The notes under the pieces are model-generated. The model saw only the letters and a list, made by a program, of their open reading frames with translations. It did no database searches and was not told the origin of the DNA. From assembly GCA_022457155.1 (NCBI GenBank), contig JAJGOT010000677.1, positions 247,501-311,500 on the forward strand: a stretch of DNA of 64,000 nucleotides. Direction: 5' to 3'. This DNA comes from Cladopsammia gracilis. Its lineage: Eukaryota; Cnidaria; Anthozoa; Scleractinia; Dendrophylliidae. Shown here piece by piece: positions 33,719 through 47,478 of this stretch (position 1 is the stretch's first letter; each line of letters opens with the position of its first letter). The position numbers and the translations under genes were made by a program.

Positions 33719-34187
33719 GTGTTTGGAAATCAGTTGAAACACCCCTCATTTTTGCATCCTTAATTTCTCCTTCTGAAATCATTTTGTTTGAGAAGTAATA
33801 TCAAACATTCGAAACTGTTAAGAGCCAAAAATTAACTGAATTGTTTATTTTTTGATAAAAGCATGAAACTTGGCAGAATAAACTAACTTCTATGAGACAA
33901 ACATTTCCCGAGATGGAGCCAGCCAAAATTCGAACCTTGAAACCCGTAATGCGCCTGTCAAAAAATGACCCATATGGTTTCTGCAGGGAAACGAAGCTGG
34001 GCAAAATATAGTTAAATTTGACGTTTCTTGGAACCATGTGCCAATGGTATTTGCTTGCAATCATAAAAGCAACTTCTACATCGCACTTGAGTCTTCGATT
34101 GTGTCACGTGAAAGGTCACGTGACACAAATGTGACGTATTGGGAATACAGAAACCTCGTTTCTTAACAGCTACGTCTTCGAGTTCAA
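33719..34187. repeat. Left long terminal inverted repeat of the CXC-protein element
   Basis: Outermost GTGTTTGGAAATC (33719-33731) and, from about 33845 to 34187, near-continuous inverted identity to 47333-47478 plus 40575-40823. Shared landmarks are TTTTTGATAAAAG, AAACTTGGCAGAATAA, GGAGCCAGCCAAAATTCG, CATATGGTTTCTGCAGGGAA and TCTTAACAGCTACGTC. A pair of CACGTG boxes (34107 and 34118) lies near the inner end and is kept in the right copy. 33735-33840 is not clearly matched on the right. Confidence 0.8.
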
Positions 34188-35236
34188 TATTGATGATTTA
34201 ATAAAGATGATTTAATCACTCATTCTGAACATGAAATAAAAATAAAATAAAGTTTGGAGTTAAAAAGACTAAATACACACGTCAATGGTCACATCGAGGT
34301 TATGCATGGAATCGAGGTTGGAGAAAGTATCGATTTCTGGGTTCTCTATTTAGAAAATTATGATAAACATTGATGCATTACTTTTGTGAAACAGCTTTCT
34401 GTAAACGAACAAATGTTCAGTGTCAGCCAACATCGTCGTGCAATTTGTTCTGACCCTAACTAATAGGGTTTAAGTTTTGGTATTTAAACTAATGGCTGCC
34501 AAAAAATGAAGGAATTAAGAAAATTAGTGCCCATTCCTTTTACGGCATCCAAGATAGCTGCTTCCATGGGAGAAAGTGTGCTCGTCTTACTTACAGTCAT
34601 TACAAGTATGAAGTAAGTAGAAAACCTGTAACAATTCAATTTTGAGCTACAGTTTCTTGCATTTTACAGTTGAAACTATGTGGCAGTTTTTTTTAACAAC
34701 TCAAACTGAAAAGATAACAAATTTGGATACGACTCGTGCCATATTGAAATTGTCTATTAAAAATCCTTTCTCTCCAGTTGTCATTGATACATCATGGAAT
34801 CGACAAGTCTGAAATGGGAACTGTGTGTTATTTGTCAACAAAATACGCGGGAAAACTTGCAATGTCCTGCACGATCAAAGAGGAAAGACTCTGGGGTTGG
34901 CTATACTTCTTTTGTACAAAATGTAAAGGTATTTCAGGATCTAAACTTGATGCCAATAAATTTGAATAGCGATCAGCTTGATGATGGCTCAGGAATGGAG
35001 GAGACCCTTTTCAATCACAAAGCATCGTGGCACAAGAGCTGTAGATATCTTTTTAGCAACACAGCTGGAGCGTGCACAGGAGAGACAAAAAGTGATGCAG
35101 CCGACGACACAAGTCCTGTAAAGGAAAGGCGGTCAACTTCAACTGTTGTACAACGACCCTTATTAGGGAAACCTGTTTTTTCTGCGATGATGAGGCTGAC
35201 TCCTCATCGGCCCTACGTGCTGCATCAACATTAGAA

Positions 35237-36648
35237 CTTCAACACGGTCAAAGTGCATGTGTAATTCATTAATTATTCCTCACATGCGCAGTTTAGAGCT
35301 AATACTACCGCGGGAGACTTGGAACTAACTAGTATCTTAGCAACCAAATGCGGACATTCCTCCTGACGCATCCAGTTTCTTTCCGTCGATCAAAACCTGT
35401 TTTGAATCAGCGAAAACATGCGAACGATAATGGCTTTCGAAAACTTTGAACCTGACTGTAAAGCAGAAGCGATCGATGATTATGGAGTTTGGCTTGTCTG
35501 CACCACTGTTTCTTCAATCTGAGAGGCAGTGATGGTTTCATTTGATGGCTGGAGTTCCGAGTGAAATCGAAGGATCGAAGATGAGCGCGAGATTCGCAAA
35601 GAAACGATCGCAGTAAAAGATGGCATCAAAAGAAAACGCTCAACCTTTCGAGCAAAAATATTGAATGAAGCATGTTTATAGTTCCTGCTCCAGTGATAAA
35701 TAAATGATATCTCTTGAGTAAATGCCATGGTTTACAAAATGAAACAATGCAACTTAAGCCTTCCAGAAATTTATTCAAATAATAAACACAGAAACATGAC
35801 AAAACGCAACGCTGATCACTGATCGCTTGATTGATCATGGCCGGGCCCAGCTCAGGATACCAAAACGAAATAAAACCAGTCGATTCACACCACTCGCATG
35901 GAATTGTCTTAATGGTAAAGGACCTCTTAAAGTCTTTCCGAATATATTTCGCTTTGAAATGGGAAACTTTCGTGCAAGGACGGCTTGCTTTCTACTTGTA
36001 AACAAAGAGCACAAATTACGGCAAGAGCTTAAAATTTGCATAAAATACTACACGAACGAGTTAGAGATGTGATCAGATCTCTCTGAATTGCGAAGATTGC
36101 AACATCCATCTTTTGACCTCTGAATGAAAAGAATTATCGTATTCGTATTAAAAATATCGCAGTGGCTATTCGTACGGCACCCATACGCGGACTTCGATTT
36201 GCTATTCGTACGGGAGTATTCTTTGATGCGAAGTATTTCTAAGTGTTACGATGAGTCGCTCGCGCGTGAGTATACAGAGACTCAGCAAATTAGTCTGAGC
36301 CAAATGAACATCGCTTACCAGAAGCGCTTCGTAAAGCTAAACGAACATTAATAACAACAACAGTGAAGGATAACATCGAAAATTGTCGAAAGTTTTGGAC
36401 TCCCGTACGAATAGAAAATCAAAGTCTGCGTACGGGTGCCGTAGGAATAGCCACTTCGTAAAAAATATATGTCAACTTCAGATTATCGAAATCTCAAGAA
36501 ACCGGTTTTCCTTTACGGCCAGCATTGAGACTTTCAATTGGATGTGACGTAAAAATCGTTAACCGCTACTAGGAAACAAGGCTCATAAATATGTACGAAC
36601 CCCACTCAAGTGGGGTTCACATAATTACACACTTTGACCGTGTTGAAG
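35237..36648. mobile_element. 1.4-kb inverted-repeat element inside the CXC gene
   Basis: A perfect 19-bp inverted repeat, CTTCAACACGGTCAAAGTG (35237-35255; 36630-36648), marks an insertion. The host frame breaks off at STLEL before it and resumes with DSKIREFAMLL just after it. GTGTAATT follows each end on the inside. A 22-bp palindrome (GAACCCCACT/AGTGGGGTTC) lies just inside the right end. No clear target duplication. Internal frames have no recognised domain. Confidence 0.8.
36161..36455. mobile_element. 295-bp MITE nested in the 1.4-kb element
   Basis: Terminal arms of about 55 bp: AGTGGCTATTCGTACGGCAC at the left, and its inverted near-copy with TCCTACGGCACCCGTACGC at the right. Both arms also hold GCTATTCGTACGGGAGT-like sequence. 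It is therefore the third layer of insertion at this place. Confidence 0.8.
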
Positions 36649-36849
36649 TCGTCATGAACCCTTGAAGTTGATAGTAAGATCAGAGAATTTGCAATGCTAT
36701 TGAATAATGGTAAACTCCTGGCAAAACTGTCTGCTGGTGACATGGTTGCTATTGAAGCGAAGTATCACACCAAGTGTTTGGTTTCTTTATACAATCAGAC
36801 GAGACAGTTGAAATCAGCATCAACTAAGGATACCGCCTACAGGTCAATA

Positions 36850-37028
36850 CACCCTATTCCAAAATGGCGGGCAATTTATTATTCTTTTGTATGCATTTCA
36901 ATTAGCCCTCTTTGCCTCATTTTCGCGTGAAAATTATGTTGTATTTTGCACATACTGACGAGGCAACAAGGGCTAATTAACATACATTTAAAAGAATAAT
37001 AAATTGGCCACCATTTTAGAATAAGGTG
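36850..37028. mobile_element. 179-bp MITE inside the CXC gene
   Basis: Ends CACCCTATTCCAAAATGGCG and, inverted, CACCTTATTCTAAAATGGTG, with further symmetry through TTATTATTCTTTT and TTAGCCCT. AATA flanks both sides (36846-36849; 37029-37032). Removing it rejoins the host frame from YRS to EGTAFAEL. Confidence 0.85.
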
Positions 37029-46564: not shown

Positions 46565-46570
46565 AAAATA

Positions 46571-46805
46571 TGTTTCGACGATACGAAATTACAAATTGGG
46601 AACGAAAACGCAGCGACTAAACGTACTTGTCCCGACGATACGAAGTTACGATTGGAAACGAAAACGCAGCGACTAAACGTACTGTTTTTAGTCCGAACTC
46701 TGTGACCACTAAGTGACAACTAACTTACTAGCACGACGGATTCGAATATTAATTAGTTAACGGACGGACGGTATTAATGTTAATGAGCGAGCGTTCGCCG
46801 GAACA
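46571..46805 (-). repeat. BEL 5' LTR, 235 bp
   Basis: Partner of 40886-41162. Begins (minus strand) TGTTCCGGCGAACGC and ends CGAAACA. Confidence 0.9.
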
Positions 46806-46810
46806 ATAAT

Positions 46811-47332
46811 AATAATTTATAAATAAATTTAAAAAATATAAATTTATAATAACTTAAAAGACGATAGACTACAAAATGTTTAAGGTGGTAGTGACAAGGA
46901 AGCCTATATAGAAGCCGGGGGCTTATGAGCTATTGGCTTCTTGACAATATGGGATACATCATACGAATTATAGGGACAGCATGAAATATAAAATATATTA
47001 TTTTAAAAAGAAAAGAAAAGGAAAGGAAAGAAGTATGTAGCTCAACAAAGAATATTTTTGACTAGGAAAGAAGGAATTTTTTAAGTCTTTTCCCAAACAA
47101 ACGGATGCTTTCACTGTTTTGAATTTTATGACTTAACGAGTTGAAAAACTTAGGTCCTTGAAACCGAATTGAGAAGTTTCGAATATTAGTTCGACAGGGA
47201 GGTATATAAAAAAGGTTGCAATTTCTAGTATAATGAGAATGTAACTGGCTTGCAAGAGTAAACATATCACGAAAATAATTAGGAAGTAAACATCTTTTAA
47301 ATAGATACATAAATTTACCTATCTGATACAAA
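46811..47332 (-). pseudogene. CR1/L2-like LINE, C-terminus and 3' UTR
   Basis: Minus-strand frame 47331-47062 reads FRDMFTLASQLHSHYTRNCN, FYIPPCRTNIRNFSIRFQGP and KFFNSLSHKIQNSESIRLFG, the conserved end of the CR1/L2 reverse transcriptase protein (N/TR...PRCRTN...FQGPK.WNSL). It is 5'-truncated at 47332, with its 3' UTR interrupted by the BEL element. The tail is at 40824-40885. It belongs to a different subfamily from the LINE end at 24 kb. Confidence 0.8.
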
Positions 47333-47478
47333 TTACGAGTTTCAAGATGCGAATTTTGGCTGGCTCCATATCAGGGAATGTTTGTCTCATAGAAGTTAGT
47401 TATTCTGCCAAGTTTCATACTTTTATCAAAAAAAGAACAGTTTCGTCCTTTAACAGAAGGACTAGATTTCCAAACACC
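47333..47478. repeat. Right long terminal inverted repeat, outer part
   Basis: Inverted copy of the left TIR (GAATTTTGGCTGGCTCC, TTTGTCTCATAGAAGTTAG, AAGTTTCATACTTTTATC), ending GATTTCCAAACACC at 47465-47478, the complement of the outermost left motif. A second GGTGTTTGGAAATC in opposite orientation follows at 47525-47538, so the exact right end is uncertain. Confidence 0.75.

Follow-up and report, generated by a model that had tools for sequence, protein, structure and literature searches.

The inverted arms and the gene between them

We analysed a window of 64,000 nucleotides from the scleractinian Cladopsammia gracilis (contig JAJGOT010000677.1, positions 247,501 to 311,500 of the forward strand; coordinates below count from the first letter of the window). 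The window holds a decayed DNA transposon, in which long inverted ends flank a broken gene. Its parts are as follows (P0121 is a relative of the encoded protein; ORF, open reading frame).

33719..34190, plus strand: left terminal arm of the inverted pair, with firm homology to the right arm from 33839 and an uncertain outer boundary
34788..40141, plus strand: broken transposase gene with frameshifts, stops and two inserts (tblastn of P0121, ORFs and frames)
within 34788..40141, plus strand: N-terminal Cys-rich modules, then the predicted DDE region (~37700-39200) and a CXC-like tail (~40030-40140)
39765..39767, plus strand: junction left by a deletion that removed the nuclease core (242 residues, P0121 1107-1348; tblastn)
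40580..40823, minus strand: right inverted arm, inner piece (BLAST pairing to the left arm)
47332..47442, minus strand: right inverted arm, outer piece (BLAST pairing to the left arm)

The inner right piece (40580-40823) is identical at 218 of 245 positions to left-arm bases up to 34190 (E 1e-84, BLAST), and the outer piece (47332-47442) matches 33839-33950 at 101 of 112 positions (E 7e-38 for that BLAST piece). Both right-hand pieces form a single arm, interrupted at ~40823/47332 by younger DNA. Over 353 comparable sites the two arms are 90.4% identical, with a Kimura two-parameter distance (K2P) of 0.104, and this match is far above the chance level. By arithmetic on the coordinates, the element measures ~5.6 kb once the three nested inserts are subtracted; the missing nuclease core would add ~0.7 kb in an intact copy.

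As shown by tblastn, P0121 matches the window in pieces of a single orientation from 34809 to 40107 with 47-77% identity. Residues 1-1106 map to 34809-39765, and residues 1349-1483 map to 39767-40107. With no nuclease of its own to offer and with an interrupted right arm, the copy is very likely immobile now. The single clean junction, which passes from residue 1106 to 1349 across 39765/39767, would suit a non-autonomous derivative that had lost the nuclease core before insertion and was mobilised in trans; however, decay after insertion accounts equally well for the loss, no further copy with this junction came up (no search of the genome was made), and we consider such a derivative unlikely.

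A first-pass annotation of this DNA had described a pseudogene of a repeated, Cys-rich and CXC-tailed family between inverted terminal copies, in an element of ~5.7 kb after subtraction of insertions, and had assigned the protein family to a DNA element. The arm identity, the tblastn pieces with their CXC-like tail and the size given above agree with this description. We regard the assignment as partly supported: the gene remnant lies between the arms, and DDE and nuclease folds are predicted in relatives.

Relatives of the encoded protein

The window gene is a broken version of a protein of ~1,500 amino acids, of which many relatives are intact. One window ORF used as query retrieved 473 relatives among 1,336 scored proteins, and a longer X-joined query retrieved 518 among 7,986; the best 120 of the 473 and the best 120 of the 518 were listed. 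Across 99% of the query, P0121 matches it at 71% identity. Among the matches listed, at least 65 relatives have 1,395-1,574 amino acids, and the named sources include Actinostola, Paramuricea, Oculina and Nematostella. Of the 65 listed relatives with 1,390 amino acids or more, most come from short contigs: 55 are on contigs of 4.7-7.5 kb (median 5.8 kb), and the other 10 on longer contigs. The short contigs are compatible with assembly stopping at repeat ends, but fragmentary assemblies would give the same picture. Rather than one orthologue per genome, Actinostola sp. cb2023 alone contributed at least four listed entries in the P0121-lineage search and at least nine in the search with a second lineage (below), counts not expected of a single-copy host gene. 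In viral and genome contig collections, a peptide pattern matched 1 and 13 stretches, respectively, none of them a relative by tblastn, and phages gave no match. Simple motif counts across all 240 and 120 proteins came out low, since many of these are fragments, and we set the counts aside.

A Pfam scan of six relatives (E<=1) placed DUF6589 above the cutoff in P0168 and P0223 and below it in P0206, and did not find it in P0121, P0187 or P0238. The Pfam CXC model (PF03638) matched two of eight proteins scanned, both below the cutoff (P0252, 0.0077; P0273, 0.016).

Predicted folds

When the model of the DDE region of relatives was re-aligned structurally (VIA), ranks 1-10 were all DDE enzymes, and the D, D and E columns are conserved in 75-76 of 76 relatives. 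We therefore predict that the relatives carry a DDE transposase core, an assignment based on the re-alignment and residue conservation. The nuclease core of relatives is modelled with an EXO1/FEN1/XPG fold; a PDB sequence search with P0121 gave an unrelated best match (E 0.39). We predict that in intact relatives a single protein combines a DDE transposase with a flap-endonuclease-like (FEN1/XPG-type) nuclease and also has a cysteine-rich, CXC-like tail.

With such a protein, the long inverted ends would be bound by the Cys-rich modules, cut by the DDE core and joined by it to a staggered target. The flap-type nuclease might act at excision or at joining, trimming either 5′ flaps or the non-transferred strand.

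The outer ends

The motif GTGTTTGGAAATC occurs exactly three times in the window, at 33719 (plus), 47465 (minus) and 47526 (plus). On the right, both copies belong to one palindrome, each forming an arm of it:

~47440..47547, no strand: imperfect palindrome (~108 bp) with GTGTTTGGAAATC in both arms; folding -49 kcal/mol

For this reason GTGTTTGGAAATC matches on the right in either orientation and the match is uninformative on the terminus. We rejected it as the right end, and the earlier proposal that the same motif stands at each outer end is not borne out. One arm of the palindrome and 33719-33742 share 22 of 24 bases. The palindrome is possibly a dispersed hairpin repeat, and its motif had no match in viral contigs.

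The palindrome was probably inserted within the right arm. Past it, 33793-33815 and 47551-47575 resemble each other over 25 columns (score 14; none of 1,920 background windows scores so high), a likeness spotted by eye before it was tested; the wider outer 211 bases showed no significant arm homology, with 15 of 464 background windows doing as well. Since arm homology seems to resume past the palindrome, the true right end probably lies beyond ~47575, and the motif at 33719 may be the left end.

Nested insertions and order of events

Later DNA was found inside the gene and the right arm (LINE, long interspersed nuclear element; LTR, long terminal repeat).

35236..36649, no strand: later insert inside the gene, with perfect 20-bp inverted ends
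36850..37028, no strand: 179-bp hairpin insert inside the gene, with CACC..GGTG ends and AATA on both flanks
40824..47331, minus strand: younger DNA (~6.5 kb) splitting the right arm, made up of a LINE-like 3′ end and a BEL/Pao element
40886..46805, minus strand: BEL/Pao retrotransposon, LTRs 40886-41162 and 46571-46805, flanks ATAAT

The BEL/Pao element encodes DUF1759 (3e-10) and Peptidase_A17 (4.4e-45) domains. Its LTRs are 94.9% identical (K2P 0.053, 235 sites), a lower divergence than that of the arms, which fits an order in which the transposon came first and BEL/Pao later. Judged by eye only, the surrounding sequence that the BEL/Pao element splits looks like the 3′ end of a LINE, closing in a CATT tail.

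A second lineage and other features of the window

A second remnant lies further along the window:

within 58134..60367, minus strand: decayed copy from another, distant lineage of this transposase superfamily, with part of the nuclease kept; ~25% identity to P0121

Its own search gave 147 relatives among 7,996 scored proteins, and the named ones include a fish, amphioxus, a snail, a beetle, a sea spider, Montipora and anemones. In a profile-profile comparison the two lineages aligned over 1,062 columns (E 2e-127, identity 26%). Within the portion of this alignment that was inspected, the blocks DNID, DQxLY and DQxxE line up between the lineages, as do the first acidic residues of the nuclease. 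The second-lineage consensus retains EEADTR, EDTDV and TGCDTVS, and its member P0337 matched DUF6589 slightly below the cutoff (1.7e-5). Because the lineages align by profile, the window harbours two lineages of one superfamily.

Elsewhere, 47760-56840 is taken up by a fibronectin-III-like exon repeated in tandem, with units of ~900 bp and 440 bp and ORFs such as TAPNAAPTNVQGNN.. (domain named by eye). Also judged by eye, a minus-strand ORF at 4140-4640 resembles the RNase H region of DIRS-type retroelements, and plus-strand ORFs at 61930-63730 resemble LINE endonuclease and reverse transcriptase.

Classification and comparison with known systems

We propose that the window element is a defunct DNA transposon, probably of the AcademX lineage within the Academ superfamily. 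In keeping with Academ/AcademX, we found a DDD/E transposase (by the predicted fold of relatives), a nuclease encoded alongside it (in relatives; lost from the window copy) and terminal inverted repeats (TIRs). The first-pass annotation had suggested an undescribed class of transposon. We do not uphold this, because AcademX is already described as transposase plus nuclease in PMC10045372. The same paper gives target site duplications (TSDs) of 9-10 bp for AcademH and 3-4 bp for AcademX and relates these lengths to their encoded helicase and nuclease. In the literature collection searched, no paper combined Academ with XPG nuclease and transposase, and none named DUF6589.

Several points weigh against this placement. 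It was made by architecture and description and not by a sequence match to a catalogued Academ protein, and the arms and the gene were seen as one unit in the window copy alone. No convincing target duplication was seen by eye, nor was the right terminus found. Foldseek by itself found no significant match to the DDE model: its best hit was unrelated (E 0.47), and HzTransib reached 0.69. DUF6589, the sole Pfam name, exceeds the cutoff in just two of the six relatives scanned. One of the 120 entries listed, P0122, has a precomputed PF13359, which we take to be a Harbinger-type DDE domain, possibly from a fused gene prediction. That AcademX carries a nuclease of XPG type is itself an assumption on our part.

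A separate, uncatalogued superfamily of cnidarians and other animals, with a P-element/hAT-like DDE transposase fused to a FEN1/XPG-type nuclease and distinct from Academ, is rather improbable. If it were true, one protein would do both end cutting and flap processing during transposition. The AcademX nuclease is reportedly XPG-like, and a Cys8 zinc finger is said to be present; the architecture predicted here agrees closely with both. Against a separate superfamily also stands the AcademX pairing of transposase and nuclease, as given in PMC10045372. A host family of Tesmin/TSO1-like CXC proteins beside an unrelated repeat is very improbable: P0187, P0248 and P0332 are named 'Tesmin/TSO1-like CXC domain-containing' in public records, but DDE and nuclease folds are predicted in relatives, at least 13 of the matches listed come from one anemone, the Pfam CXC model stays below the cutoff (two of eight scanned), and arms and gene are compatible with a single unit in the window copy.

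The predicted folds offer a reading of a large protein family. Its public records, which come from anemones, corals, an annelid, a crab, a snail, amphioxus and a fish, carry the names hypothetical, 'CXC domain' or DUF6589 protein. These recorded proteins are very likely transposases, better masked than counted among host genes, and the role of a flap nuclease within a transposase becomes testable.

Members of the P element superfamily have a THAP DNA-binding domain, and hAT elements have a hAT dimerisation domain and an 8-bp TSD. Unlike the P element superfamily, six relatives scanned gave no THAP match at E<=1. The Drosophila P element transposase (6pe2) is 11% identical and is not known to carry a fused flap nuclease. 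The EXO1, FEN1 and XPG 5′-nucleases differ in being 10-14% identical, whereas the nuclease in relatives forms part of a transposase. Tesmin/TSO1 CXC proteins (PF03638) share the Cys-rich tail, with weak matches in P0252 and P0273; however, the relatives' matches fall under the curated cutoff and the tail sits on a transposase. AcademX differs in that the window copy is dead and its nuclease core gone, and resembles our element in its DDE transposase with nuclease (PMC10045372), its long TIRs and its occurrence in animals.
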